In this document: positions 1,293 to 14,851 of the stretch, piece by piece | Layout of the letters: every line of letters begins with the position of its first letter | Numbering within the stretch: position 1 is the first letter of the stretch | Assembly (NCBI GenBank): GCA_023381945.1 | Contig: JAMCQY010000364.1 | Coordinates: forward strand, 1-15,045 | Source of the DNA: Deltaproteobacteria bacterium | Lineage (GTDB): Bacteria > Desulfobacterota > Desulfobaccia > Desulfobaccales > 0-14-0-80-60-11 | Length of the DNA stretch: 15,045 nucleotides | Reading direction: 5' to 3' | Translations under genes and position numbers: made by a program | The notes under the pieces: model-generated | Told to the model about the DNA's origin: nothing | Seen by the model: the letters and a program-made list of their open reading frames with translations, nothing else | Database searches by the model: none

Positions 1293-1432
1293 TTCCTAAT
1301 TTATCAGTTTTCTGGGCCGACCATAACCTGCGGCAATTGCGGATCAGACCTGGAATTACCATTAGGTGCTGCGAAAAAACAAGTAATTGTCAGAATTTTT
1401 AGTCAACTGCCGTTCTCTAAAAGGAGGAACAG
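1223..1432. other. Intergenic leader of first arylsulfatase
   Basis: This stretch holds the presumed IS right end (to about 1292) and the 5' region of the sulfatase gene. I see an 8-bp palindrome GCAATTGC at 1333-1340 but no convincing -35/-10 pair. The last 30 bases closely resemble the leader of the second sulfatase gene at 8649-8678. The promoter may lie in 1292-1400, or transcription may start within the IS. Confidence 0.4.
1421..1427 (+). promoter_or_regulatory. Strong ribosome binding site of arylsulfatase A
   Basis: AAGGAGG lies 5 nt before the ATG at 1433 and fixes that start. The block CTAAAAGGAGG is repeated as TTAAAAGGAGG before the second arylsulfatase. Confidence 0.8.
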
Positions 1433-3211
1433 ATGCAGCGACTATCCAAAACAATCCTGGCAGTCTTGGTGGTGGTGGTACTGGCCCTAACGCTGTTGGC
1501 CGCAGTGGTCAGCCCGGCCGCGGCCCAAGAAAAGGAAAAACCCAAGAAATCAGCTGCCGGTCCGGCGGCCCAGGAAAAAGGCAAGGACAAGAAGCCCAAC
1601 ATCCTGTTCATCATGGGCGATGACATTGGCTGGATGCAGCCGAGTTGCTATCACCGGGGCTTGATGGTCGGGGAGACGCCGAACATTGACCGCCTGGCGA
1701 ACGATGGTGCGATTTTCATGGACTACGTTGCCATGCAGAGCTGCACCTCCGGGCGCAATGCCTTCGTCACCGGCATGTATCCGCTACGCACGGGCATGAT
1801 TCCGCCGCAGTTGCCCGGCAGCCCGTCGTACCTACGACCCGGCACTCCCTGCATCGCCAAGTTCCTGCTGGACCTGGGCTATGCCACCGGTCAGTTCGGC
1901 AAGAACCACCTGGGCGACCACCCGGATGCCCTGCCGACGGCTCACGGCTTCCAGGAGTTTTGGGGCTATCTGTACCACCTGGACGCCATGCAGCAGGTGA
2001 GCTTCCCGGACATCAACAAGAGCCCGACCGAGCAAGGCATCGCGCCGCCTATGAAGATGGCGCCCATTCCCGGCATCCCGGAAACCCCGGGGGCGATTTC
2101 CCCTAAAGAAGGCGTCTGCCTGGCACCGCCGCGCCCGTTGCTCTGGATGAAGTCCCCTGACGGCACGGCGAAAAACCAAACGGGCAAGGACGAAGGCCCC
2201 CTGACGTTGGAGCGGTCGAAAACCATCGACGAGGAAATCTCGGCCCACGTCATCGATTGGCTCGACCGGAACGACCCCAAGAAGACCGGCAAGCCGTTCT
2301 TCTGCTACTACAACCCGGCGCGCATGCACATCACGACCATGCTGTCGGACAAGTACCTGGCCATGCTGGGTGTGAAGGGCGGCAAGGACTGGGGCATCAA
2401 CGAAGCCGGCATGAAGCAGATGGACGACAACATCGGCTTGGTGCTCAAGAAGCTCGAGGACATGGGTGAGCTTGACAACACCATCATTGTCTTCACCACC
2501 GACAACGGCGCCGAGACGGTCACCTTCCCCGACGGCGGCATCACGCCCTTCAAGGGTCAGAAGGGCGAGGCCTGGGAAGGCGGTTACCGCGCTCCATGCG
2601 TGGTCCGCTGGCCGGGTCACATCAAGCCGGGTACGATCAAGAAGGAACTCTTTGCGGCCCTGGACTGGCTGCCGACATTGGTAGAGATTGCCGGCGGTCC
2701 CAAGGGCAACGATCTGAAGAAGCAGATCGAGGCCGGCAAGTACCCGGGCATCGTCAAGACGACGCTGGACGGCGTCAACCAACTGGCCTATCTCGAAGGC
2801 AAGTCGGAGAAATCGGCGCGCGACTACTTCTTCTACTACTCGGGCGCGACGCCGTCCGCGGTGCGTTACAAGAACTGGAAATTCTACTACACCATGTCGC
2901 AGGGCGGGGCGCCCGGCTGGCTCGAGCCCCTGGTCAGCTATCACTGGACCATGATCCAGAACATCAAGCGCGATCCCTTCGAGCAGGCCGCCGGGATATC
3001 CGGTCAAAAGACGGTGATGGGCCTTGGCGGTGCCCTGGCCGCTCCGAGCACCGCCTATCTCTACGACTGGAACATCCTCCCCATCGGCCAAATGTTGTGG
3101 GAGAAGGAGCTGATGTCGTACAAAACGTTCCCGCCGCTGCAGGCTCCCGAGACCTACAACCTGGACATGATCCTGAAGCAGGTGCAAGCGGCCGGTCACC
3201 CAAGCGACTAG
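1433..3211 (+). CDS. Secreted arylsulfatase with variant C-T-S-G-R active-site motif
   Basis: This is a 592-residue periplasmic sulfatase that should hydrolyse sulfate esters to sulfate and an alcohol or phenol. A signal peptide covers about residues 1-31 (cleavage near SPAAAQ), followed by a Lys/Ala linker. Sulfatase signatures in order are the metal-binding pair D63-D64 in IMGDDIGW, TPNIDRLA, the nucleophile region SCTSGRNAFVTG with Cys104, GKNHLGD, D357-N358 in TTDNGAE, and K374 in PFKGQKGEAWEGGYRAP. GKNHLG and the C-terminal part place it in the bacterial arylsulfatase group that usually has C-T-A-G-R. Here the third motif position is Ser rather than Pro or Ala, so formylglycine formation may differ. 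Length is normal for the family. It opens a same-strand cluster; the next gene begins 77 bp downstream after a hairpin. The natural substrate is unknown. Confidence 0.92.
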   Translation: MQRLSKTILAVLVVVVLALTLLAAVVSPAAAQEKEKPKKSAAGPAAQEKGKDKKPNILFIMGDDIGWMQPSCYHRGLMVGETPNIDRLANDGAIFMDYVAMQSCTSGRNAFVTGMYPLRTGMIPPQLPGSPSYLRPGTPCIAKFLLDLGYATGQFGKNHLGDHPDALPTAHGFQEFWGYLYHLDAMQQVSFPDINKSPTEQGIAPPMKMAPIPGIPETPGAISPKEGVCLAPPRPLLWMKSPDGTAKNQTGKDEGPLTLERSKTIDEEISAHVIDWLDRNDPKKTGKPFFCYYNPARMHITTMLSDKYLAMLGVKGGKDWGINEAGMKQMDDNIGLVLKKLEDMGELDNTIIVFTTDNGAETVTFPDGGITPFKGQKGEAWEGGYRAPCVVRWPGHIKPGTIKKELFAALDWLPTLVEIAGGPKGNDLKKQIEAGKYPGIVKTTLDGVNQLAYLEGKSEKSARDYFFYYSGATPSAVRYKNWKFYYTMSQGGAPGWLEPLVSYHWTMIQNIKRDPFEQAAGISGQKTVMGLGGALAAPSTAYLYDWNILPIGQMLWEKELMSYKTFPPLQAPETYNLDMILKQVQAAGHPSD

Positions 3212-3238
3212 CCACCTGAGGCGAGCGAGTTAGAACGC

Positions 3239-3261
3239 GGGCGCCCCGACCAGGGGCGCCC
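3239..3261 (+). terminator. GC-rich hairpin between sulfatase and phosphatase genes
   Basis: A perfect 9-bp stem (GGGCGCCCC / GGGGCGCCC) encloses the loop GACCA. No T-run follows, so it is a poor intrinsic terminator. It may attenuate transcription, act as a processing or stability element, or slow ribosomes. A similar hairpin occupies the same place in the second cassette (11363-11384). Confidence 0.5.
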
Positions 3262-3288
3262 CCATCATACCAACCAGGAGACGAGCGG

Positions 3289-4314
3289 GTGAAAAAAAGC
3301 GGTGTTTTTGGCAAGATTGTTGTCATTGGCATTATCGGAGCCTTTGCCGCTCTGGCTCTAAGCAACCCGGCCCTGGCCCAGGACCCTTTGGCCTCTTGGA
3401 ACGAGAGCCCAGCCAAGCAGGCCATCTTGAGCTTTGTCCAAAAGGTCACCGATAAATCCAACTCCGCCTACGTGCCGCCGGCGGACCGCATCGCCACCTT
3501 TGACCAGGACGGCACCTTGTGGGTGTCGCATCCTTTGTATACCCAGGCCATATTTGCCCTGGACCGGGTGCATGAATTGGCTCCCAAACATCCGGAGTGG
3601 AAGAACAAACAGCCCTTCAAAGCGGTTCTCACCAACGGCCGGGAGACCATGGCCAGGTTCACCGAGCAGGACTGGGCCAAAATCATCGGGGTCACCCATG
3701 CGGGCATGACCACCGATGCATTTCTCAAGATTGTCCAGGAATGGCTGGGCAAGGCGAAGCACCCCCGCTTCCAGCGGCCCTACACCGAACTCATTTACCA
3801 GCCCATGCTGGAAGTCATGCAATATCTCCGGGCCAACGGTTTCAAGACCTACATCGTCACTGGTGGTGGCCAGGAGTTTGTCCGCGTCTATAGTGAGAAG
3901 GTCTACGGCGTGCCGCCGGAGCAAGTGGTGGGCTCCAGCATCGCCACTAAGTATGAATACCAGGACGGCAAGCCGGTGCTGATGCGGCTGCCCAAGGTGT
4001 TTTTCATCGACGACAAGACCGGCAAGCCCATAGGGATCAATCTATTCATTGGCAAACGCCCCTTTGCTGCCTTCGGGAACTCCGGCGGCGACCGGGAGAT
4101 GCTGGAGTGGACCACCGCGGAGAAAGGCCCCCGGCTCGCGATGCTCGTCCTGCACGACGATGCCAAGCGCGAGTATGCCTACGGTCCTGCCGAGGGACTG
4201 CCGGATACCAAGGTGGGTACCTTCAGCCAGACATTATACGACGAGGCGAAGAAGCGTGGCTGGGTCGTTATCTCAATGAAGAATGATTGGAAGAAGATCT
4301 TCTCCTGGGAGTAG
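3289..4314 (+). CDS. Periplasmic HAD-family phosphatase
   Basis: This 341-residue exported hydrolase belongs to the haloacid dehalogenase superfamily and probably removes phosphate from a small organic phosphate in the periplasm. The signal peptide is residues 1-30 (ending NPALA, before QDP). HAD motif I is FDQDGTLW with nucleophile D72 and acid/base D74. Motif II is T191 in YIVTGGGQEF. The motif III Lys is in the region KVFFIDDKTGKP. Motif IV is GNSGGDREML (263-271, D268 binding Mg). The FDxDGTLW plus GNSxGD pattern fits the phosphoserine-phosphatase-like group of unknown substrate. Translation starts at GTG 3289, with AGGAG 8 nt upstream. Its signal peptide is nearly the same as that of the protein at 11415. 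It lies just after the arylsulfatase and before an outer-membrane barrel, so co-transcription is likely. Confidence 0.85.
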   Translation: MKKSGVFGKIVVIGIIGAFAALALSNPALAQDPLASWNESPAKQAILSFVQKVTDKSNSAYVPPADRIATFDQDGTLWVSHPLYTQAIFALDRVHELAPKHPEWKNKQPFKAVLTNGRETMARFTEQDWAKIIGVTHAGMTTDAFLKIVQEWLGKAKHPRFQRPYTELIYQPMLEVMQYLRANGFKTYIVTGGGQEFVRVYSEKVYGVPPEQVVGSSIATKYEYQDGKPVLMRLPKVFFIDDKTGKPIGINLFIGKRPFAAFGNSGGDREMLEWTTAEKGPRLAMLVLHDDAKREYAYGPAEGLPDTKVGTFSQTLYDEAKKRGWVVISMKNDWKKIFSWE

Positions 4315-4325
4315 GGAGGAGCGCC

Positions 4326-4400
4326 GTGAAGGGACTGAAGATCACAGCAACGCTCAGCATAGAAGAATTGCATTACCGGGAGGCGACTAGTCAGCATTAA
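4326..4400 (+). CDS. Possible small ORF, 24 codons
   Basis: A GTG codon preceded by GGGAGGAG about 5 nt upstream opens a short frame encoding VKGLKITATLSIEELHYREA and four more residues, ending at TAA. It fills the gap between the phosphatase and the barrel gene. It could be a leader peptide, the decayed start of a lost gene, or chance. There is no homology I recognise. The strong ribosome site is the only support. Confidence 0.2.
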   Translation: MKGLKITATLSIEELHYREATSQH

Positions 4401-4410
4401 GGAAGAGGGG

Positions 4411-5330
4411 ATGAAAACAAGGAGGAGTTTACTCAACCTGTTAACGGCGATGACTCTGGGCCTCCTCATAGCCGGAGGCGCCAGGGCCGGGCTGGCTGCC
4501 ATCGACCTTAAAGATGCTTCCGAAGCCACTAAGCCCGAGGACATGCAGGAAGTGGCAAGCAGCTCAACAACCCGGTCAGTTCCATCTGGAACATCACCAC
4601 CCAGAGCAACATGACCTTTCTCAAGGGCAACCTCTCCCCGTCCTACCGCGGGCAGTTCACCTTCAACTTCCAGCCGGTCTTGCCCATTCCCTTGACCAAG
4701 GACTGGAACTTGATTCCCCGGCCGGTGATCCCGTTCCTGTCCAACCCCTATATCCGGGGGGTGAATACCAGTATCGGGACGCTCGACTGGGGCCGCACCG
4801 CGGGTATGGGGGATATGGCCTTCGTTGCCTTGCTCTCTCCAAACATTCAGAAATGGATCCTGGGGGTGGGACCTACCTTCATTTTCCCCACAGCCAGCAC
4901 CCTGGACTTGGGGCAGGGCAAGTTTCAGATGGGGCCGTCAGGAGTAGCGGGTTTCCTTACGAAAAATTGGATAGGCCTCATCTTTGTCCAGAACTGGTGG
5001 TCCCTGACAGGCACCCACCAAACTCCGGTGACTAATCAAATGAACCTCCAGTACGTCCTGGTGCGCATGCTGCCGGAGGCTTGGCAAATCCAGATGACCC
5101 CCAACGTCCTGGTCAATTGGCGGGCCACCGGCGGCAACTCCCTGACTTTCCCCATCGGAATCGGGGTCGGCAGAACGTTCCGCATCCATCCGGGGCTGCC
5201 GCCCATTTCCATGGCCCTGGAGTTCCAATGGATGGCGGCGCACCCGGATGATTTCGGTCAGCGCTTCAACATCCGCTTCATCTTTAAGCCGGTGCTTCCT
5301 AACTTAGTCAAGAAACCGATCTTGGAATAA
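4411..5330 (+). pseudogene. Outer-membrane beta-barrel protein ("neuromedin U"-type family), split by a 1-nt frameshift
   Basis: The first 67-codon frame (4411-4614) gives a signal peptide (cleavage near GGARA) and the start of the mature protein. The rest (4611-5330, 239 codons) lies in another frame. Reading across the break with one extra base near 4558 gives AKQLNNPVSSIWNITTQSNM, joining smoothly to MTFLKGNLSPSYRGQFTFNFQPV. This NNPVSSIWN...NFQPVLPIPL pattern is typical of bacterial outer-membrane barrel proteins often auto-annotated as neuromedin U. The repaired product would be 306 residues. Alternating strands, a GPTFIFPTA block and FGQRFNIRFIFKPV near the C-terminus fit a barrel. A missing A in GCAAAGCAG is the simplest explanation, either a real mutation or a sequencing error. 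The fragments overlap as ATGA, but the second lacks an export signal, so reinitiation would not rescue function. Confidence 0.8.
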
Positions 5331-5410
5331 TGGACGCCGGATGGCGATGCCGGCTGCAAGAACCCAAGGCAATAACTATCAATAATTATTCAACAACCGA
5401 GGAGGGGACT

Positions 5411-5866
5411 ATGAGACCAAATTGGACACCTTTATCGGACCATGGGCGGTGGCTAAATGGAATGTTTCTGGTTGTTCTGGGCTTCTTTCTAATGGGCTGC
5501 ACCGCCGCCGGCGGCCCCCCAATTAGCCAGCAGGTGCCCCCGCCACAAACTGCCGAACAGTTGCTGTCCGCCGCCGGCTTCAAGCAAATCTACCCCACCA
5601 CCCCGGCCCAAAAAGCGCGGCTGAACAATATGCCCCAGAAGCAAATCTTCTTGATCAGCAAGGGCACAAAGGTCTACTATGTCTATGCCGACGCCAGCGG
5701 CTGCGGCTGCCTCTATCGCGGCAACCAGCAAAATTATCAGAACTTCCAAAACCTGCTGGCCCAGGCCCAGATGGCCGCCGAGCGCTACCAGGCCGCCCAG
5801 ATGGCTGCCTGGGACTGGAATACCTGGGGGCCAGGCTGGTGGGGGGAGACGGGAGAGATGGAGTGA
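5411..5866 (+). CDS. Small outer-envelope lipoprotein of unknown function
   Basis: This 151-residue protein has a hydrophobic segment (18-28) ending in the lipobox LMGC, with C30 as the probable lipidated Cys. The following GGPP and PPPQ residues form a flexible tether. The mature part contains LLSAAGFKQI, KGTKVYYVYADASGCGCLYR with a Cys-Gly-Cys pair, a Gln/Ala-rich helix (about 105-135) and a Trp-rich tail WDWNTWGPGWWGE. I recognise the KxYYVYAD-GCGCLY pattern from uncharacterised proteobacterial lipoproteins but know no function. ATG 5411 is chosen because AGGAGG lies 5 nt upstream; a frame extending back to 5330 overlaps the barrel stop and has no such site. It lies between the barrel and the cytochrome gene. 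Confidence 0.75.
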   Translation: MRPNWTPLSDHGRWLNGMFLVVLGFFLMGCTAAGGPPISQQVPPPQTAEQLLSAAGFKQIYPTTPAQKARLNNMPQKQIFLISKGTKVYYVYADASGCGCLYRGNQQNYQNFQNLLAQAQMAAERYQAAQMAAWDWNTWGPGWWGETGEME

Positions 5867-5954
5867 TTCGGCGGGCTCTCTGAGGAGATTGCCGGGGTTA
5901 TTCAGGCCAGAGGCTCAAATTTGCCTTCGGTAGAAGTGCTGCGGGGTTGGTCTT

Positions 5955-8369
5955 ATGACAGGTTCTTGCCGGCTAATCGTCAGGGTGGCGGCCATGGCCG
6001 TTTTGATTTTCAGTTATTGCTCCGGGTTGGCCCATCCCACCGACCCAGCCCCTCCCATGGAACTCTCCCTATACGCCGGCTCCAAGAGCTGCATCGAATG
6101 CCATGGCAAGTTTTACCAGCTTTGGTCCACCTCCAGGCACGGCTTGGCTATGCAGCCATACACCCCGGAGTTCGCCCGGGCCAATCTTTCCCCCCAGGCC
6201 AAAGACCTGGCCATCGGCAAGCATCGATACCATGCCGACATTGGCCCCTCGGCCGGTTTGGTCCTGGAAACCGGTCCCAAAGGCAAGAAGAAAAAATACC
6301 CCATTCTCCACGCCATGGGTGGCAAGAACGTCTATTATTTCCTGACCCCTTTGGAGCGGGGCCGCCTGCAGACCCTGCCGGTGGCTTATGATGTGCGCAG
6401 CAAACAGTGGTTTGATACCGCAGCCAGCGGAGTGCGCCACTTCGGCTCCGGGCCGCCCGAGGAGCCGGTCCACTGGAAGGAGTGGCCTTACACCTTCAAC
6501 ACCGCTTGCTTCAACTGCCACGTCAGCCAGCTCAGCACCAACTTTGACCTGAAAACCGACACCTACCGAACTACCTGGGCAGAAGCGGGCATCAATTGCG
6601 AAACCTGTCACGGCCCCTCCAAGGAACACAACGAAGTGATGCAAGCCGCGCCGAGGGGCCAGACCCCCCCGGATCTAAAGATCATCAGCGTCAAGAAGTT
6701 CACCTCTGAGCAGCACAACGCGGCCTGCGGCTCCTGCCATGCCAAAGGGTCCCCCCTGACCACGACTTTTCCCCCGGGGAACCGGTTTTTTGACCACTTC
6801 GACCTGGCAACTCTGGAGAACCCGGACTACTACCCTGACGGACGGGACCTGGGGGAGAACTATACTTATACCACCTGGCTCATGAGTCCCTGCGTCAAAT
6901 CCGGAAAATTGCATTGCCTCAAGTGCCACACTTCCAGCGGCCGCTACCGCTTTAAAGACGAAGCCAAAGCCAACGAGGCCTGCCTTCCCTGCCACGCCGA
7001 ACGGGTGGCCAAGGCCGCGGAGCACATCCATCACCCGGCCGATAAGCCGGGGACGCCCACCAGGTGCGTCACCTGCCATATGCCCATGACTGCGTTTGCC
7101 CGCATGAACCGGAGCGACCACTCCATGCTGCCGCCGGCGCCGGCCGCGACCATGGCTTTCGGCTCGCCCAACGCCTGCAATCTTTGCCATAAGGATAAAA
7201 ACGCAGCTTGGGCCGACCAGAACGTGCGGCAGTGGCGGACCCGGGACTACCAGTCCCCGCTTCTTCTGCGGGCCGGTCTCATTGAGGCAGCCCGGAAGCG
7301 CGACTGGCAAAAACTCCCGGAAATGCTGGCCTATATCACCAGTCAGGAGCGGGATGAGGTCTTCGCCGCTTCCCTTATCCGCCTGACCATGGCCGCTACG
7401 GATGAGCAGGTTCGCCTTACTTTGCTCAAGTCAATCCAGGACCCCTCGCCCCTGGTGCGGGCTGCGGCGGCTGAAGCTCTCTCGGTCCGGCCAGGCAAAG
7501 ATAGCTTCCAGGCACTGGCAACGGCGGCTGGAGATGACTACCGTTTGGTGCGGATCAGGGCTGCGGCTTCCCTATCCCGTTATCCTGCAGGGTGGCTTCA
7601 GGATGAGGACCAGGTTAAGGTGAAGCAGGCCACCGGCGAGTACCTGGCTTCTCTTACGGCCCGCCCGGATCAGTGGTCCTCCCATTACAACCTGGGCAAC
7701 TATTACCTTAACCGGGGCGACGCCAGACAAGCCCTGGCTTCTTACGACACCGCTCTCAGGCTCGAGCCCCGGGCGGCCATGGTAATGGTCAACGCCGCCA
7801 TGGCTTACGCCCAACTGGGCGACAACAGCGAGGCTGAAAAGTCCCTCGCAAAATCCATCAAAATTGCCCCGGATAATCCCGCGGCCCACTTCAATCTGGG
7901 GCTGCTCAAGGCCGAGCAGAACCGGAGCAAAGAGGCAGAGCGTGAGCTTAAGGAAGCCTTCCGGCTCGATCCCAAGATGGCCCCGGCGGCTTATAACCTC
8001 TGCATCCTCACCATTAAAGACCGGCCTTCGGAGGGTTTATCCTGGTGCCGGAAAGCCGCGGCACTGAATCCCCAGGAGCCCAAATACGCCTTTACCCTGG
8101 CCTTTTACCAAAGGGAGCAGGGGGACCTTAAAAATGCCGCGGCAACTTTGCAGGATATTCTGATGCAGCAGCCCGGTTTCACTGACGGTTTCCTGTTGCT
8201 ATCTGAGATTTATGTTGAACGGGGGGACCACTCTCAGGCCGAAACGCTGCTCAGGCAGGCGCTCCAGATGGAAAACCTTGCGCCTCGGGACCGGGCCAGG
8301 GTTACCGCGGCGCTACAGAAATTGGACCAGGCAGGACCCCAAAAGGAAGACAAGCCCGGCAATCGCTGA
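5955..8369 (+). CDS. Octaheme c-type cytochrome with HEAT-like and TPR repeats
   Basis: This 804-residue exported protein probably transfers electrons in the periplasm or at the outer membrane. A signal peptide spans about 1-26 (ending GLAHP). Eight CXXCH haem sites are visible at residues 46 (CIECH), 185 (CFNCH), 215 (CETCH), 258 (CGSCH), 321 (CLKCH), 343 (CLPCH), 371 (CVTCH) and 408 (CNLCH). The arrangement resembles the cytochrome c554/doubled-CXXCH family. Residues about 465-548 form HEAT-like helices (for example DPSPLVRAAAAEALS and DYRLVRIRAAASLSRYP). About 575-790 are five to six TPR units (for example NLGNYYLNRGDARQALASYD and NLGLLKAEQNRSKEAERELK), likely a docking surface. The ribosome site before ATG 5955 is weak (GGGGTTGG); Met at 5994 is a less likely start because it would truncate the signal. 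It closes the first cassette. The electron partner is unknown. Confidence 0.9.
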   Translation: MTGSCRLIVRVAAMAVLIFSYCSGLAHPTDPAPPMELSLYAGSKSCIECHGKFYQLWSTSRHGLAMQPYTPEFARANLSPQAKDLAIGKHRYHADIGPSAGLVLETGPKGKKKKYPILHAMGGKNVYYFLTPLERGRLQTLPVAYDVRSKQWFDTAASGVRHFGSGPPEEPVHWKEWPYTFNTACFNCHVSQLSTNFDLKTDTYRTTWAEAGINCETCHGPSKEHNEVMQAAPRGQTPPDLKIISVKKFTSEQHNAACGSCHAKGSPLTTTFPPGNRFFDHFDLATLENPDYYPDGRDLGENYTYTTWLMSPCVKSGKLHCLKCHTSSGRYRFKDEAKANEACLPCHAERVAKAAEHIHHPADKPGTPTRCVTCHMPMTAFARMNRSDHSMLPPAPAATMAFGSPNACNLCHKDKNAAWADQNVRQWRTRDYQSPLLLRAGLIEAARKRDWQKLPEMLAYITSQERDEVFAASLIRLTMAATDEQVRLTLLKSIQDPSPLVRAAAAEALSVRPGKDSFQALATAAGDDYRLVRIRAAASLSRYPAGWLQDEDQVKVKQATGEYLASLTARPDQWSSHYNLGNYYLNRGDARQALASYDTALRLEPRAAMVMVNAAMAYAQLGDNSEAEKSLAKSIKIAPDNPAAHFNLGLLKAEQNRSKEAERELKEAFRLDPKMAPAAYNLCILTIKDRPSEGLSWCRKAAALNPQEPKYAFTLAFYQREQGDLKNAAATLQDILMQQPGFTDGFLLLSEIYVERGDHSQAETLLRQALQMENLAPRDRARVTAALQKLDQAGPQKEDKPGNR

Positions 8370-8502
8370 GGACGGTTTGGCATCGGATAGGAGGCTTCAA
8401 CGCTCGATGGCCGGCCCCGCCTTCATACTCGTTCTATAACGCCTGCGCAGTGCCCATCATTATCCCAAGGTTCTCCCCGGGTATCGCTTTTAATCCTGCA
8501 AA

Positions 8503-8526
8503 GATAATTCCTTGGAAATAATTATC
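8503..8526. promoter_or_regulatory. Inverted repeat GATAATT-N10-AATTATC, candidate operator
   Basis: Perfect 7-bp arms flank a 10-bp spacer. The outer GATAAT...ATTATC arms recall a Fur-type box, but total length is 24 rather than 19 bp, so the regulator is open. It lies about 150 bp before the second sulfatase start. Confidence 0.4.
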
Positions 8527-8541
8527 GGCACTTGAAAACAT

Positions 8542-8557
8542 TTTAAGTGTTCTTAAA
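8542..8557. promoter_or_regulatory. Inverted repeat TTTAAG-TGTT-CTTAAA, candidate operator
   Basis: Perfect 6-bp arms with a 4-bp centre lie in the AT-rich promoter region, 16 bp after the first dyad. It could be a repressor site or a chance AT palindrome. Confidence 0.35.
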
Positions 8558-8678
8558 GTTTAAATTATTCCTCTTAACAAGGGTTCGAAGTTACTCACAG
8601 AGCCATACCCTTCATCAATCCTTTCCTGTCGGGGCTCTGACGCTGAAGCTAACCGCCATTCTTTAAAAGGAGGGAAGG

Positions 8679-11315
8679 ATGCGACGACCTTCTAAAACTC
8701 TCTGCATATGGCTTATGGCGATTCTGGCCGTGCCGCTGGCCATGGCCCCGGCCCTGGCCCAGCAGGCCGCTCCACCTAACCAGCCCACACCGGCAGTGGA
8801 AGGCCCAGGCAGGGTACCCCAGGAACTCACCGAGCCCAAGGGCGTACCGCAAAGTGACCGGTGGGCCAGCTCGGTTAGCCCACAGGTCACCGGTGTGCCG
8901 GGTTCCCCCAGTGCTACCACGACCATCAGCGGGCAGCAATTGCCGCCGCCGCCACCCAAGTTCGGCGGCAAGATCGAACGCACCACCAAGGGTTCCAAGC
9001 CCTGGTGGCCGCCCCGGGTGGTGCCGCCCAAGGGGGCACCCAACATCTTGCTCATCATGACCGACGACTGCGGTTTCGGCGCGCCTAGCACCTTCGGCGG
9101 CGTCATCCCCACCCCGGCCCTGGACCGGGTCGCCAAGATGGGCCTACGCTACACCAACTTCCATTCCACCTCCCTGTGCTCGCCCACCCGGGCGGCCCTG
9201 ATCACCGGGCGCAACCACCATTCGACGGGCTACGGCGTGATCGCCGAGCAGGCCACGGGCTATCCGGGCTACGACAGCATCATCACCAGGGACAAGGCCA
9301 CCATCGGCAAGGTCCTGAAGGACAACGGCTACCGCACCTCGTGGTTCGGCAAGAACCACAACACGCCGTCCTTCCAGGCGACCCCCACCGGACCTTTCGA
9401 TCAGTGGCCCGTCGGCATGGGTTTCGAGTACTTCTACGGCTTCATGGGCGGCGACACCAACCAGTGGCAGCCCGCCAATCTGGCCCGCAACACCACTTAC
9501 ATCTATCCATTCCTGGACAACCCCAAGTACAACCTCATCACCGCCATGGCGGACGAAGCCATCGCTTACATGAATCAGGTCAATACGCTGACGCCGGATC
9601 AGCCGTTTTTCGTCTATTACGTGCCGGGCGCCACGCATGCGCCGCATCACCCGACGCCGGAATGGATCAAAAAAGCTACCGATTTGCATCTCTTTGACCA
9701 GGGCTGGAACAAGCTGCGGGAGCAAATCTTCGAGAACCAGAAGAAACTTGGGGTGATCCCGGCCAACGCCAAGCTGACCCCGTGGCCCAAGGACCTACTG
9801 AAGGAATGGGACCAGCTTACGGCTGACGAGAAGAAGATGTTCATCCGCCAGGTGGACGTCTACGCCGCGTATCTCATGTACACCGACCACGAAATCGGCC
9901 GGGTCATCCAGGCGGTGGAGGACATGGGCAAGTTGGATAACACCCTGATCATCTACATCAGCGGCGACAACGGCTCCAGCGCCGAGGGCACTCTGGTGGG
10001 CACGCCCAACGAGGTCGCCATGTTCAACGGCGTCGAAGTGCCGGTTGATGTTCAGCTAAAGGATTTCTACGACGTCTGGGGCTCCGACAAGACTTACAAC
10101 CACATGGCGGTGGGCTGGACCTGGGCCTTCGACACACCATTTTCCTGGACCAAGCAGATCGCCTCCCACTTCGGCGGCATCAAGCAGGGCATGTGCATCG
10201 CCTGGCCCAAGGTAATTAAAGATGTCGGCGGCATCCGCCACCAGTTCCACCACGTCATCGACATCGTGCCTACGATTCTTGAGGCGACCAAGATCAAGGC
10301 GCCGAAGATTGTCGACGGCATCAAGCAGGCGCCCATCGAAGGCGCCAGCCTGATGTACACCTTTGACAAATCGAACGCCAACGCCCCCTCACGGCACAAG
10401 ACTCAGTACTTCGAGATGTTCGGCGACCACGCCATTTACCACGACGGCTGGATCGCCAGCACTCGGGTGATGCGGCCGCCGTGGGAAGTCGCGGGCGGAG
10501 TCGGCGCGGACCCCGCCAAATACCCCTGGGAACTCTACAACCTCAAGAATGACTGGACCCAGTCGGAGGATCTCGCCGCCAAGAATCCGGCGAAGGTGAA
10601 GGAACTGGAGGCGATTTTCTGGCGGGAGGCGAAGAAATACCAGGTGGAGCCACTTGACGCTACTGTGGTGACCCGCCTCATCACGCCGCGGCCCAGCATC
10701 ACCGCCGGCCGCAACGTCTTCACCTGGACCGGGCCGCTCACCGGGACGCCCAACGGCGACGCGCCCAGCGTTCTCAACGCCTCATATAATTTCAAGGCCG
10801 AAGTGGAGATCCCGGAGGGCGGCGCCGAGGGCATGCTCATCACCCAGGGCGGCCGCTTCGGCGGCTACGGCTTTTACGTGCTCAAGGGCAAGCCGGTCTT
10901 CCTCTGGAACCTGGTAGACCTGAAGCGTATCCGCTGGGAAGGCCCCGAGGCGATCTCGCCCGGCAAACACACCCTGGAGTTTGACTTCAAGTACGATGGC
11001 CTGGGCATGGGCACCCTGGCCTTTAATAACATTAGCGGCATCGGCCGTTCAGGCACCGGCGTCCTCAAAGTGGACGGCAAGGACGTGGCCACCCAGAAGA
11101 TGGAGCGCACGATACCATTCATTCTGCAATGGGACGAGAACCTGGACGTCGGCTCCGACACCGGCACCCCGGTGGACGACAAAGACTACCAGGTGCCGTT
11201 CAAATTCACTGGCAAGATTAACAAGATCACCTTGACGATCGACCGGCCGAAACTTTCGCCCGAGGATATCAAGAAACTCGAAGCGGCGCAGCGGAACAAC
11301 CGCGCCTCGGAGTAA
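8679..11315 (+). CDS. Large secreted arylsulfatase with C-terminal beta-sandwich extension
   Basis: This 878-residue periplasmic sulfatase hydrolyses sulfate esters. The signal peptide is about 1-27 (ending APALA, before QQ), then a Pro-rich linker to about 110. The catalytic domain shows D129-D130 in IMTDDCGFGAP, the canonical formylglycine motif SLCSPTRAALITGR with Cys167, SWFGKNHNTP, and SGDNGSSAEGT. Residues about 700-860 look like a beta-sandwich (FKAEVEIPEGGAEGMLITQGG, GYGFYVLKGKPVF, HTLEFDFKYDG), the usual tail of the long AtsA-type arylsulfatases, possibly for carbohydrate binding or stability. ATG 8679 follows AAAAGGAGG with close spacing. It differs strongly from the protein at 1433 (motif, length, tail), so they are not a recent duplication, yet their leaders match. 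The active-site Cys needs a maturing enzyme not seen here. Confidence 0.94.
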   Translation: MRRPSKTLCIWLMAILAVPLAMAPALAQQAAPPNQPTPAVEGPGRVPQELTEPKGVPQSDRWASSVSPQVTGVPGSPSATTTISGQQLPPPPPKFGGKIERTTKGSKPWWPPRVVPPKGAPNILLIMTDDCGFGAPSTFGGVIPTPALDRVAKMGLRYTNFHSTSLCSPTRAALITGRNHHSTGYGVIAEQATGYPGYDSIITRDKATIGKVLKDNGYRTSWFGKNHNTPSFQATPTGPFDQWPVGMGFEYFYGFMGGDTNQWQPANLARNTTYIYPFLDNPKYNLITAMADEAIAYMNQVNTLTPDQPFFVYYVPGATHAPHHPTPEWIKKATDLHLFDQGWNKLREQIFENQKKLGVIPANAKLTPWPKDLLKEWDQLTADEKKMFIRQVDVYAAYLMYTDHEIGRVIQAVEDMGKLDNTLIIYISGDNGSSAEGTLVGTPNEVAMFNGVEVPVDVQLKDFYDVWGSDKTYNHMAVGWTWAFDTPFSWTKQIASHFGGIKQGMCIAWPKVIKDVGGIRHQFHHVIDIVPTILEATKIKAPKIVDGIKQAPIEGASLMYTFDKSNANAPSRHKTQYFEMFGDHAIYHDGWIASTRVMRPPWEVAGGVGADPAKYPWELYNLKNDWTQSEDLAAKNPAKVKELEAIFWREAKKYQVEPLDATVVTRLITPRPSITAGRNVFTWTGPLTGTPNGDAPSVLNASYNFKAEVEIPEGGAEGMLITQGGRFGGYGFYVLKGKPVFLWNLVDLKRIRWEGPEAISPGKHTLEFDFKYDGLGMGTLAFNNISGIGRSGTGVLKVDGKDVATQKMERTIPFILQWDENLDVGSDTGTPVDDKDYQVPFKFTGKINKITLTIDRPKLSPEDIKKLEAAQRNNRASE

Positions 11316-11362
11316 CCGGAAGGAATGGCAAATAGTCTGATGATCAGGTGGGCTTAACAAGT

Positions 11363-11384
11363 GGGCCCCCCGGACAGGGTGCCC
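11363..11384 (+). terminator. GC-rich hairpin upstream of the glycine-heptad protein gene
   Basis: Arms GGGCCCCC and GGGTGCCC pair over 8 positions with one mismatch, loop CGGACA. As at 3239-3261, it lies between an arylsulfatase and the next secreted-protein gene, and no T-run follows directly. Attenuation or mRNA processing is as likely as termination. Confidence 0.45.
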
Positions 11385-11414
11385 CCAATTTACTACCCAA
11401 AGGAGAAGGAGCGT

Positions 11415-11978
11415 ATGAAAAGAAACGGTGTTGTCGGCAAGATGGTCATCCTCGGTATCCTCGGGGCCTTTGCGGCCCTGGCCCTGGCCACTCCGGCCCT
11501 GGCCCAGAAAGCCCAGGAGCTTAAAGACGCCCACAAGATGATGTCGGATGGGTGGAAGATGTACAACGACGGCCAGCGTGATGTCATCAAAGGCAAGGAA
11601 ATGAACGACCTGGTGGCCGTGCAAATGGGTTTTCAGGATAAGATGGTCCAGGGCGACAAGATCATCCAGGATGGCCGGAATACCCAAACCCAGGCGGCCA
11701 CCTTATTTGCCAAGGGTGACAAAACCTTCTCGGAAAATATGTCGACCCCAAGCGTGGCCAAACAAGGCCTGAAGGAAATGAGCGACGCCTTCAAAATGGC
11801 CAATGACGGCGGGAAGATGATCGGAGAAGGGATGAGAATGAACAACAAGGTGGCCGAAGGCGCCGGCGCGATTGAAAAGTTCGCCCAGGGCAACCAGGTT
11901 ATTGAAACCGGTATGAAGACCATGGCCCAAGGAGCCCAGTTGTTCCTGAAAGGCGAGAATATGGTTTTGAAGAAATAG
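11415..11978 (+). CDS. Small secreted helical protein with Gly-x6-Gly heptads
   Basis: This 187-residue protein has a signal peptide (1-30, ending TPALA before Q) that is nearly the same as that of the phosphatase at 3289: both have GAFAALAL and PALAQ. The mature part is Lys, Met, Gln and Gly rich with no Cys and looks all-helical. Glycines recur seven residues apart at 46/53, 80/87, 132/139 and in a run at 159, 166, 173 and 180, each framed by hydrophobic residues (for example QGDKIIQDG, QGNQVIETG, QGAQLFLKG). I do not recognise a family. ATG 11415 is preceded by AAAGGAGAAGGAG; an upstream frame from 11361 runs through the hairpin and is rejected. It lies between arylsulfatase and outer-membrane barrel genes, so a periplasmic adaptor, chaperone or scaffold role is possible but unproven. 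Confidence 0.8.
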   Translation: MKRNGVVGKMVILGILGAFAALALATPALAQKAQELKDAHKMMSDGWKMYNDGQRDVIKGKEMNDLVAVQMGFQDKMVQGDKIIQDGRNTQTQAATLFAKGDKTFSENMSTPSVAKQGLKEMSDAFKMANDGGKMIGEGMRMNNKVAEGAGAIEKFAQGNQVIETGMKTMAQGAQLFLKGENMVLKK

Positions 11979-11988
11979 CAACGGGAAA

Positions 11989-12015
11989 GGCTCGGCTGGT
12001 TTTGCCGGCCGGGCC
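11989..12015 (+). terminator. Strong 11-bp hairpin after the glycine-heptad gene
   Basis: Arms GGCTCGGCTGG and CCGGCCGGGCC pair over 11 positions in RNA (two G-U pairs) around the loop TTTTG, 11 bases after the stop codon. No T-run follows, so it is either a weak terminator or an mRNA-stabilising structure inside the operon. Confidence 0.5.
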
Positions 12016-12078
12016 TATCCGGGTGGGGGAACATAGCAACTTCCGGACGAAATATAGTCTCGACGCGAGGGGAAAACT

Positions 12079-13020
12079 ATGCAGAATTTGAAAAAAGCTC
12101 TTATAGTCATTACTTTACTGCTCATGTTGCCCTGTAGCGCGGGATATGCCGCCGGGGAGGCCGGGAAGCCGCCGGAGGAGGCCGTTCAGGCCAAAGAAGA
12201 TGAGCCGGTCCCGGTGCAAAAAGAAGAATGGCAGTTCTTTGTGGCCCCCTACTTATGGATCCCAGGGGCCAGCATCAATACCACTTTCTCAGGCCATACC
12301 TCCTCGATTAGCGAGGGCTGGTATGATATTGTGCCCCACCTGTTTAGCAACGCGCTCGGCGCCATGGGTCGCTTCGAGGCCTGGAAGGGCAGATGGGGGA
12401 TTTATGTGGATAGCTATTATCTCTATATCGGCGACAGCGTCAGCGATAGCGCCGGGAAAACCATTTTTTTGGGTCCGCGGGGGCGTATCCCGGCCAGCCT
12501 ACTGCTCAACGGTGACCTCAAGTTTATCAGCCGGGCTGCCAGTGTGGATTTCGGGCCGCGCTACCTGGTGGGAACCATGCCCTTAAGCGGGGACAAGCCC
12601 TTGCCGCTATTGTCCTTCGAGGTGCTGGGCGGAGGGCGCTATAATTTTTACAACCAATATTTGAAGCTGGGTTTGAGCGCTACCCTGAGCGGCCCCTTGG
12701 GAAATCTAAGCATTACCAGAGGCGGATCTTTCGTTAACAAGATCGAAAGATCCTTCCTCGAGCCTTTCCTGGGGATGCGCCTCGGCTTGTATCTCAACCC
12801 CAAGGTGGTTGCCCTCCTGCGGTTCACCGTCGGAGGCTTTGGCTTTGCCGAGGACAATAACTTTGATATGGATATGGAACTCGACGTCGGTTATAAGGTC
12901 CATAAGAATATATACGCCTATGCCGGCTGGCGCGCCCGCTATGTGAGTTTTTCCACGGATGGCCTCTCCTTAAATGTCTGGTTCAATGGCCCTGTCTTGG
13001 GAGCGGTATTTGCTTTTTAA
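12079..13020 (+). CDS. Outer-membrane beta-barrel protein, unknown substrate
   Basis: This 313-residue protein has a signal peptide of about 24-25 residues (ending SAGYAA), a short acidic linker (EEAVQAKEDEPVPVQKE) and then a long run of alternating polar/hydrophobic strands rich in aromatic and Gly residues: EWQFFVAPYLWIPG, WGIYVDSYYLYIG, RYNFYNQYLKLGLSATLSG, MRLGLYLNPKVVALLRFTVGG, NIYAYAGWRARYVSF. It ends in Phe (VLGAVFAF), the usual signal for assembly by the BAM complex. The ribosome site is GAGGGG before ATG 12079. It occupies the same cassette position as the broken barrel at 4411 but is not obviously related to it. A porin-like role letting sulfated compounds in or products out is inference from context. 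Confidence 0.8.
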   Translation: MQNLKKALIVITLLLMLPCSAGYAAGEAGKPPEEAVQAKEDEPVPVQKEEWQFFVAPYLWIPGASINTTFSGHTSSISEGWYDIVPHLFSNALGAMGRFEAWKGRWGIYVDSYYLYIGDSVSDSAGKTIFLGPRGRIPASLLLNGDLKFISRAASVDFGPRYLVGTMPLSGDKPLPLLSFEVLGGGRYNFYNQYLKLGLSATLSGPLGNLSITRGGSFVNKIERSFLEPFLGMRLGLYLNPKVVALLRFTVGGFGFAEDNNFDMDMELDVGYKVHKNIYAYAGWRARYVSFSTDGLSLNVWFNGPVLGAVFAF

Positions 13021-13069: not shown

Positions 13070-13809
13070 GCCAAACTACTGCTCAAGGCCACCTTCAACC
13101 TGGCAGCCAAGGATGGCCTACTGACCCGTAATCCCTGCCTGGGAATTAGCAAGTTTCCAAACCAGAAGGCCGTAAAGTATGTCCCGCCGCGGGAGCACAT
13201 CGCCCAGGTGCTTCTCCTGGCGAAACCGTTGGACCGGGCCTATCTTACAACCATCTGGCTCACTGGGGCCAGGGTCAGGGAAATCAATCACCTCACTTGG
13301 GAAGATGTCTTCTTTGGCAAGGGGCTCGTTTGCCTTTGGACCCGGAAGAAGAAGGGAGGGGACCGCACCCCGCGACTGATCAAAATGATCCCTGAAGTGG
13401 AAAGAGCCCTACGTTATGCCTGGGACCATAAGGTGAAGGAGTCCCCCTGGGTATTTACTAATGAGGACATGCTGAAAAAGTATCCGGGGGAACCTGGAAA
13501 GTGGGCATATGATTACCGAGACAAGTTTTTAGGGACCTTGTGCAGGCGCGCCGGGGTTCCGGAATTCACCTACCATTGCCTCCGCCATCATACCGCTTCC
13601 ACCCTGGGCGAACGGGGCGCCTCCCTGCCCTCCATCCAGAAAATCCTGGGTCATGAGCGGGCCACAACCACCGATACCTACCTGCGGTCACTGGGGATTT
13701 CCGCCGAGGCAGCCATGGGCCTTTTGGAGGAAAGTACGACTGAAGGTACGACTGACAGAAACTTAGTTAAAACTTCTAATTTAGAATCTACTAATTTTCT
13801 TATCAAATC

Positions 13810-13840
13810 TGGCGCGCCTGGCAGGATTCGAACCTGCGAC
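13810..13840. other. Putative att core in 3' end of tRNA-Arg
   Basis: The tRNA 3' half (T arm, acceptor, CCA) directly abuts the integrase remnant. By analogy with tRNA-targeted islands, the crossover core should be a segment of this region, repeated at the far end of the island. No second copy is visible in this window, so the far end would lie left of base 1 or has been lost. Confidence 0.45.
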
Positions 13841-13886
13841 CCACGGATTAGAAGTCCGTTGCTCTATCCAACTGAGCTACAGGCGC
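13810..13886 (-). tRNA. tRNA-Arg (anticodon UCU)
   Basis: All arms can be drawn on the minus strand: acceptor GCGCCTG/CAGGCGC, D stem GCTC/GAGC, anticodon stem ACGGA/TCCGT with loop CTTCTAA (anticodon TCT), a 5-nt variable region, T stem GCAGG/CCTGC with loop TTCGAAT, discriminator G and an encoded CCA. Total 77 nt. It decodes AGA. Its 3' end faces the integrase, so it is the likely attachment site of the island on the left. Confidence 0.96.
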
Positions 13887-13990
13887 TCTGGTTTTGCGGA
13901 CATGCCTTAAATCAGGTACCCATATTAGTGTCTAATGCCACCAATATGAAAACCAAAATTCAGCTGGTTTGTTCTGCTACCAGGGATTGA

Positions 13991-14316: not shown

Positions 14317-14325
14317 TTTGCCAAT

Positions 14326-14355
14326 TTGGCTGTTGAACTTGAGGCATAATATAAT
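14326..14355 (+). promoter_or_regulatory. Possible upstream sigma-70 promoter of arsR-type gene
   Basis: TTGGCT (14326-14331) is followed after 18 bp by a perfect TATAAT (14350-14355). The -35 element overlaps the dyad GCCAA-T-TTGGC at 14320-14330, a possible operator. Confidence 0.45.
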
Positions 14356-14416
14356 TGCCGGGAGTCCGATGTCCAGCCATCCCGAGGCAGCTTGCACCGT
14401 TGGAGGCATTTACGCC

Positions 14417-14445
14417 TTGACAAAGAAGCGGGCAAGCAGTACTAT
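14417..14445 (+). promoter_or_regulatory. Proximal sigma-70 promoter of arsR-type gene
   Basis: A perfect TTGACA (14417-14422) is followed after exactly 17 bp by TACTAT (14440-14445). Transcription would start about 14452, at the ATG 14453, implying a leaderless or very short-leader mRNA, unless translation begins further downstream. Confidence 0.5.
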
Positions 14446-14467
14446 TGTTGCAATGATTCGCAACAAT
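14444..14467. promoter_or_regulatory. Inverted repeat ATTGTTGC-N8-GCAACAAT, candidate autoregulatory operator
   Basis: Perfect 8-bp arms flank an 8-bp spacer and overlap the end of the -10 element, the expected transcription start and the ATG at 14453. ArsR-family repressors commonly bind such dyads over their own promoter, so this is the best operator candidate. Confidence 0.55.
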
Positions 14468-14851
14468 TCAAAAGCAGCCCCTACTTCGGAAGAATCCTCC
14501 CAAGACTCGGCCCGGCTCTGGGAACTGCAGGCCGAGATTTGCCAGCTCATGGCCAATCCTAAACGGCTGCAGATTCTCAACCTGCTGAAATGGGGGGAGC
14601 TCTCCGTGGGCGCCATGGTGCAATCCTTGGGGATACCCAAGGCCAATCTCTCCCAGCATTTGGCCCTGATGCGGCAAAAAGGCATCCTGGCCACCCGCCG
14701 TCAGGGCACCACCATCTTTTACCGCTTGGCCACTCCGGACATTACCACCGCCTGCGAGATCATGCGGGAAGTGCTGCTGGACACGCTGAGCACCCGGGGA
14801 CGCCTCTCCCGCAATCTCCAGGCCCTCGAGGACGAGGCGCCGGAGGAGTAG
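14453..14851 (+). CDS. ArsR/SmtB-family transcriptional repressor with two candidate sensing cysteines
   Basis: This 132-residue cytoplasmic DNA-binding protein has the ArsR winged-helix fold: ANPKRLQILNLLKWGELSV (helices 1-2), VQSLGIPKANLSQHLALMRQKGIL (helix-turn-helix, about 56-79) and the wing TRRQGTTIFYRLA. It has no ELCVCDL-type arsenic site. Two Cys, C30 in AEICQLM and C101 in TACEIMRE, lie before the first core helix and in the last helix, a layout that could form a thiol switch as in persulfide-sensing ArsR proteins; this is inference. The start is uncertain: the frame is open from 14318 and ATG 14369 has GGGAG upstream, but the -10 at 14350 leaves that site almost leaderless. ATG 14453 is preferred because the domain begins soon after. 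The gene is monocistronic here, since an insertion sequence begins 21 bp downstream. Confidence 0.85.
   Translation: MIRNNSKAAPTSEESSQDSARLWELQAEICQLMANPKRLQILNLLKWGELSVGAMVQSLGIPKANLSQHLALMRQKGILATRRQGTTIFYRLATPDITTACEIMREVLLDTLSTRGRLSRNLQALEDEAPEE

Follow-up and report, generated by a model that had tools for sequence, protein, structure and literature searches.

Comparison with described systems

Exported sulfatases clustered with outer-membrane proteins are a feature of polysaccharide utilisation loci, and formylglycine sulfatases of the S1 type share the active-site motif Cys/Ser-x-Pro/Ala-x-Arg. We analysed a stretch of 15,045 nucleotides (hereafter the window) of contig JAMCQY010000364.1, assembly GCA_023381945.1, from a bacterium of the order Desulfobaccales, phylum Desulfobacterota. 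The window encodes two S1-type sulfatases, A and B, an octahaem c-type cytochrome with HEAT and TPR repeats, a secreted hydrolase of the HAD superfamily, a secreted four-helix protein (the helical protein), a small lipoprotein-like protein, and two outer-membrane beta-barrels, A and B. The cytochrome was found to be a recurrent neighbour of sulfatases in the phylum, and the HAD and helical genes were found to share their leader DNA.

According to the part considered here of a single-cell genome study on uncultured Desulfatiglans-related bacteria (PMC6129605), sulfatases, in group 1 together with maturases, were proposed as a supply of sulfate and carbon, and no specific process could be linked to the multihaem cytochromes of group 1. 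Unlike the window, that part of the account describes no cluster of sulfatases with a cytochrome. Sulfatases in anaerobic sulfate reducers are already published. The octahaem tetrathionate reductase and hydroxylamine oxidoreductase, as far as the relevant part of the literature (PMC8528874) covers them, resemble the cytochrome of the window in their eight CXXCH sites and likely periplasmic location; the window cytochrome differs from known octahaem cytochromes in its fusion to HEAT and TPR repeats. The solved S1 sulfatases 7all, 1hdh, and 7aj0 share PF00884 and an active-site cysteine motif with sulfatases A and B, which differ from them by the motif CTSGR (A), a long C-terminal extension (B), and the neighbouring octahaem cytochrome (both). 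The HAD hydrolase matched PDB entry 4ovy over residues 31-338 (E 4e-103). This entry is named simply a HAD-domain hydrolase; the neighbourhood of sulfatases and cytochrome belongs to the window. The window resembles polysaccharide utilisation loci in that genes for exported sulfatases and outer-membrane proteins are clustered. Scans of the window proteins (nine against Pfam, ten against NCBIfam) gave neither SusC/SusD nor a glycoside hydrolase, and the locus was not assigned to this type; two further proteins were compared with Pfam.

Linkage of the cytochrome and sulfatases

A sulfatase gene was located within 10 kb of the cytochrome at 23 of 42 loci, compared with 0.84 expected; for a distance of 1 kb, the count was 13 of 42 against 0.2 expected. 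The expectations were based on the number of sulfatases and the rounded size of each genome. For this count, the 13 weakest PF00884 rows were omitted, two rows for fragments of G001:C4 were combined, and the cytochrome of G014, apparently split over contigs C108 and C61, was counted once. The partnership of sulfatases with the octahaem-HEAT-TPR cytochrome is real and recurs in the phylum. In a limited literature search, we found no description of it or of the copied leader reported below. The components are of known kinds or belong to small unnamed families, and the novelty is in the combination.

Other gene kinds recurred with this pair. The 43 fetched cytochrome pieces contained a sulfatase in 23 cases, HAD in 10, DUF2092 in 5, DUF1254 in 4, barrel B in 4, and relatives of barrel A in 2; hits of L001- and L053-derived queries to their own loci are included in these numbers. 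Three loci match themselves because they supplied queries: L001 (DUF2092), L053 (an alkylsulfatase and one DUF1254 protein), and L044 (a patatin, a bestrophin-like protein, and one sulfatase). The earlier note on this DNA had suggested a gene-neighbourhood search, with genes scattered singly in related genomes as the outcome contradicting it. The search returned repeated co-occurrence instead, and the HAD, DUF1254, DUF2092, and barrel genes recurred at the cytochrome loci. The same note had treated the cytochrome as an extra of its first sulfatase cassette; the octahaem assignment was borne out, but the cytochrome is the very part through which the recurrence was found.

At the genome level, the cytochrome was detected in at least 35 and HAD in 31 of 395 sampled genomes of the phylum; the cytochrome counts are lower bounds because two candidates per genome were scored. 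Both occurred together in 14 of the 395 genomes vs. approximately 2.7 expected (Fisher p 1e-8), as counted manually under the assumption that both searches covered the same 395 genomes.

In a phylogenetic tree of 40 cytochromes, the sulfatase-linked ones were spread, with 10 changes of linkage, at least 6 of them forced by well-supported branches. The label was mildly clustered (36 of 500 shuffles were as low). L132 was removed from the tree manually and L001 and L131 because of their length, and L049 gave no hit; the result was identical with L098 labelled as unlinked or as linked, its other half L049 being linked. Each change could be either a gain or a loss, so a single ancient linkage followed by repeated losses could also produce this pattern.

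The cytochrome had eight CXXCH motifs starting at residues 46 to 408 and matched Cytochrome_C554 (PF13435) above the cut-off. Tetrathionate reductase and hydroxylamine oxidoreductase families were absent from the 25 best listed of its 31 Pfam and 34 NCBIfam matches. Nearly all of the 60 listed PDB matches were to TPR proteins, with the exception of 6i5b (residues 321-460, E 8e-9).

Sulfatases and their maturation

PF00884 was matched by sulfatase A with 152 bits and by sulfatase B with 189 bits (curated cut-off 25). The two proteins were 26% identical over 352 alignment columns, and a well-supported branch separated them in a tree of 42 sulfatases; by sequence, they are distant relatives from two S1 subfamilies. 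For sulfatase A, the solved arylsulfatase used for comparison was 7aj0. Sulfatase B matched 7all (residues 120-441, 188 bits) and, with its catalytic part, 1hdh, presumably AtsA of P. aeruginosa (residues 120-648, 178 bits); all six best solved matches of sulfatase B carry the name arylsulfatase. The motif CSPTR of sulfatase B fits the S1 consensus, whereas CTSGR of sulfatase A (1742-1756, residues 104-108) has serine in the third position. CTSGR was found once among 54 sulfatase frames, a set in which some sulfatases are entered twice because two lists of open reading frames (ORFs) were merged and in which four frames yielded no motif. The nearest relative of sulfatase A (L106) and the rest of its 12-row tree clade have CTAGR instead. 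Family membership and the catalytic motif suggest that both proteins hydrolyse sulfate esters. Their genes also share a similar start (1405-1452 vs. 8651-8698, 77% identity over 48 nt in the repeat search).

The maturase anSME (TIGR03942) was detected over the cut-off in 2 of 29 relatives and in 10 of 31 further genomes with the cytochrome, and maturase-like genes below the cut-off were present in two of the relatives (G012 and G017). One of the 11 maturase genes in the 31 further genomes was located within 10 kb of the cytochrome (G169). The broad FGE domain PF03781 was present in 28 of the 29 relatives irrespective of the presence of a sulfatase; among the FGE-domain genes listed for these relatives, none was on the same contig as their cytochromes. 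Of the 23 genomes in which a sulfatase is linked to the cytochrome, 17 had no maturase over the TIGR03942 cut-off. In line with this, the cytochrome might be envisaged as a dedicated sulfatase partner: its repeats would hold the exported sulfatases, and its haems would accept electrons from a step that needs no oxygen, namely periplasmic oxidation of the active-site cysteine to formylglycine or oxidation of the desulfated product. The wide occurrence of PF03781, the sub-cut-off maturases, the possible incompleteness of the genomes, and the existence of sulfatases without the cytochrome all count against such a role, and we regard it as quite improbable.

Copied leader of the HAD and helical genes

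In the repeat search, positions 3283-3381 matched 11409-11507 with 77% identity over 99 nt. Gapped DNA alignment extended the match to 3239-3381 vs. 11363-11507 (approximately 145 nt), that is, from the hairpins through the ribosome-binding sites (RBS) to the signal-peptidase site. Past this site, the HAD and helical genes had no similarity, and alignment of the helical family with the HAD protein by hhalign gave the leader as the single match (32 residues, 69% identity, E 5e-8). On this sequence evidence, the two families have homologous leaders. The stretch was apparently copied ahead of two unrelated mature proteins, in a direction and by a mechanism that can only be inferred; one or several copyings are both compatible with the data.

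As a control, we compared the leaders of 310 putative secreted ORFs, selected by a crude ad hoc rule from 59 sources (the window and 58 loci), restricting the comparison to pairs whose mature parts are not homologous. In the window, the HAD-helical pair scored 100, and the next of 807 within-locus pairs scored 46. The maximum among 45,526 between-locus pairs was 40. Signal peptides are compositionally poor and many of those studied end in ALAQ, so convergence of two ordinary signal peptides had to be considered. It is hardly credible, as the match holds at the DNA level and continues past the start codon into the upstream RBS and hairpin, none of the 46,332 other non-homologous pairs exceeded 46, and the top between-locus pair again joined a helical gene (that of the window) with a HAD gene (that of L042). 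Leaders of homologues were compared as well (120 listed from 147, at least 8000, and 229 proteins; starts other than M, V, or L removed). Helical vs. HAD leaders among these listed homologues scored up to 122 (median 26, 99th percentile 82), and helical or HAD leaders vs. barrel B leaders did not exceed 50. A second type of matching leader was shared by HAD protein P0126 and helical proteins P0116, P0099, and P0058. When one leader peptide was searched in the 29 relatives, two HAD genes came first (E 0.002 and 0.009) and all other hits had E of at least 0.047; therefore, it is not a general leader of the order.

Hairpin A was more stable than shuffled sequence (z -4.2), whereas the hairpin behind sulfatase B folded no better than chance (z +0.31). 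Behind the A-clade sulfatase, L044 has a similar hairpin (z -3.1), and L042 has a hairpin whose sequence is unrelated (z -3.0).

Several further candidates for copied leaders were rejected. The score of 240 in L111 came from two overlapping ORFs. In L101 (71, and 46 in the control), the longer match was wholly upstream of both starts and was therefore read as homologous 3' ends of tandem sulfatase paralogues. The pair of sulfatases B and A in L042 (136), excluded from the control as homologous proteins, was assigned to a larger duplication because the match further includes the 3' end of a trigger-factor-like ORF: positions 3744-3879, comprising this ORF end, the RBS, and the sulfatase B signal peptide, are repeated at 6313-6455 ahead of sulfatase A, apparently as a remnant of local duplication. 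Leader copying is not a general habit of these clusters; among non-homologous pairs, only HAD-helical stands clear.

Gene arrangements in the window and in relatives

The features of the window are listed in Table 1. Two transcription units, 1433-8369 and 8679-13020, are likely; the low-GC gap between them, with one promoter-like match (8532-8559, 9 of 12), would be the start of the second. The signal-peptide part and the barrel part of the barrel A gene are in different frames, and sequencing error and decay cannot be told apart as the cause. Barrel B was identified as a single closed barrel behind a signal peptide. Homologues of the helical protein (E <= 0.001) numbered 147 and those of barrel B 229, with the query counted in each case. 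At the thresholds used, the helical protein was detected in four of the 29 genomes of the order (one strong match, E 1e-99; three weak, 1e-11 to 9e-17) and HAD in five. Named homologues of the window proteins were mostly from Desulfobaccales, and the single genome-scan locus was from a metagenome-assembled genome of Syntrophobacterales. The integrase/tRNA-Arg end of the window resembles the end of a genomic island extending leftward. The ArsR-type regulator beyond it is possibly unrelated to the cluster.

Table 1. Features of the window and their positions.
Feature	Position	Strand	Remarks
Transposase, IS5/IS1182-like	82-1221	minus	Left of cluster
RBS and first codons of sulfatase A	1405-1452	+	48 nt, 77% identity to 8651-8698
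Sulfatase A, S1-type, 592 aa	1433-3211	+	PF00884; predicted Sec-like signal peptide (by eye); CTSGR at residue 104
GC hairpin 3' of sulfatase A	3239-3261	+	9-bp stem
Leader module, copy 1	3239-3381	+	Hairpin, RBS, signal peptide of HAD gene
Secreted HAD-superfamily hydrolase, 341 aa	3289-4314	+	GTG start; PDB relative 4ovy
Barrel A gene, frame-interrupted	4411-5330	+	Barrel part 4611-5330
Small lipoprotein-like protein	5411-5866	+	Lipobox MGC assigned by eye; without Pfam family
Octahaem c-type cytochrome, HEAT and TPR repeats, 804 aa	5955-8369	+	8 CXXCH
309-nt gap	8370-8678	no strand	GC 0.47 vs. 0.58 in window
RBS and first codons of sulfatase B	8651-8698	+	Counterpart of 1405-1452
Sulfatase B, 878 aa	8679-11315	+	PF00884; CSPTR at residue 167; C-terminal extension
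Leader module, copy 2	11363-11507	+	Weak hairpin, RBS, signal peptide of helical gene
Secreted four-helix protein, 187 aa	11415-11978	+	No Pfam or PHROG family
Barrel B, outer-membrane beta-barrel, 313 aa	12079-13020	+	No Pfam family
Truncated tyrosine integrase ORF	13208-13990		N-terminal part gone; reads in frame over antisense tRNA-Arg
tRNA-Arg	13810-13886		Antisense to integrase ORF
ArsR-type helix-turn-helix regulator	14318-14851		Beyond integrase

Elsewhere, sulfatases were accompanied by DUF1254, bestrophin-like, patatin, type III alkylsulfatase, and cytochrome genes in varying order and orientation. L044 reads cytochrome, A-type sulfatase, patatin, bestrophin-like protein, sulfatase B; its cytochrome and sulfatase B share 80-82% identity with those of the window, and its sulfatase A 41%. 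In L104 the order is A-type sulfatase, bestrophin-like protein, cytochrome, sulfatase B, and in L053 it is sulfatase B, alkylsulfatase, DUF1254, cytochrome. The type III alkylsulfatase of L053 (2159-4144, PF14863/PF14864), next to sulfatase B, has a relative in L056 (6545-8521) that likewise adjoins sulfatase B. L001 contains the helical gene, barrel B, and DUF2092 behind a cytochrome relative broken across several frames (5354-7738); the helical-barrel B pair is intact, and no sulfatase is present in the locus. Relatives of barrel A (26-30% identity) stand next to the cytochrome and sulfatases in L118 and L122. Maturase genes neighbour sulfatases in L042 and L122. L042 is arranged as maturase, trigger-factor-like ORF, sulfatase B, A-type sulfatase, HAD, DUF1254. 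The trigger-factor-like ORF (2850-3800; relatives in L043 and L060), placed between the radical-SAM sulfatase maturase and the sulfatases, has the N- and C-terminal domains and gave no hit to the peptidyl-prolyl isomerase domain; possibly, its product is a dedicated chaperone keeping sulfatases unfolded for modification.

Proposed function and alternative explanations

We consider it probable that the window carries a mosaic cluster, built around the octahaem-HEAT-TPR cytochrome of a Desulfobaccales-like bacterium, for the use of sulfate esters outside the cytoplasm, most likely in the periplasm. The outer-membrane barrels would admit small organosulfates to the periplasm, where exported S1 sulfatases of two subfamilies may strip sulfate from different substrates and the HAD hydrolase may act on a further ester. 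The cytochrome, docked via its repeats, would carry electrons in the same compartment, perhaps those released when the freed alcohol or phenol is oxidised, and the freed sulfate could be used in respiration.

Several observations weigh against this reading. Among the 29 genomes of the class (the same as those of the order), 7 contained the cytochrome (E <= 1e-60) and 18 contained PF00884; therefore, sulfatases do without the cytochrome. Fifteen of the 43 cytochrome pieces had neither a sulfatase nor any tested partner, although four of these were on contigs shorter than 6 kb and L098 carries one half of a gene whose other half is linked. Given related genomes and a possible single old gain followed by losses, the loci are not fully independent. 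Furthermore, barrel A is split between frames, the lipoprotein had no relative in the 43 cytochrome pieces, and the window yielded neither a sulfate transporter nor an enzyme acting on the desulfated product.

The S1 fold also includes phospho- and phosphonate-ester hydrolases, so the sulfatase-fold enzymes and the HAD protein could instead form an envelope-remodelling or phosphate/phosphonate-ester system whose substrate is not sulfate esters. An NCBIfam match to PehA, far below the cut-off, and the membership of the partner HAD in a phosphatase superfamily agree with this. In favour of sulfate esters, L053 has a type III alkylsulfatase with sulfatase B on one side and the cytochrome on the other, L056 has a relative of this enzyme beside sulfatase B, and every one of the six best solved matches of sulfatase B bears the name arylsulfatase. 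We regard this alternative system as rather unlikely. The transposase on the left, the integrase fragment with tRNA-Arg on the right, and the broken barrel A would also suit two unrelated operons joined by chance on a mobile island. The linkage already disfavours this, since genes of these kinds are found side by side repeatedly in the phylum; L044, which has the nearest cytochrome, likewise possesses one A-clade and one B-clade sulfatase, and a search to the left of the tRNA within the window gave no repeat of the tRNA end exceeding 14 nt. We consider a chance neighbourhood improbable.

The earlier note had seen in the window two parallel cassettes of one plan (sulfatase, hairpin, secreted protein, barrel) with unrelated parts, and hence a modular system in which accessory genes are swapped behind a fixed regulatory and export frame. 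The layout exists, but barrel A is broken and the hairpin is strong only behind sulfatase A. The parallel appearance probably results in part from the copying of the hairpin-RBS-signal-peptide stretch before two unrelated mature proteins. The homologous leader DNA of the HAD and helical genes does amount to a physical regulatory and export frame, and hairpins also stand behind A-clade sulfatases in L042 and L044; a constant order of sulfatase, secreted protein, and barrel is missing. The doubled order of the window was not seen in the other loci examined, where barrels were sought with two queries only and unlike barrels may thus have been missed; hairpin B is not above chance, and L001 has the helical-barrel B pair without an adjacent sulfatase. 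The varying order largely refutes the fixed frame, which we consider most unlikely; the differing arrangements support a mosaic cluster.

Biological significance

Sulfate esters are a hidden source of sulfate for anaerobes. A cytochrome family travelling with sulfatases across the phylum hints at an as yet untested redox step in anaerobic desulfation. The copied hairpin-RBS-signal-peptide stretch, with its junction at the signal-peptidase site, points to a route by which exported proteins may gain a ready-made start for expression and export.

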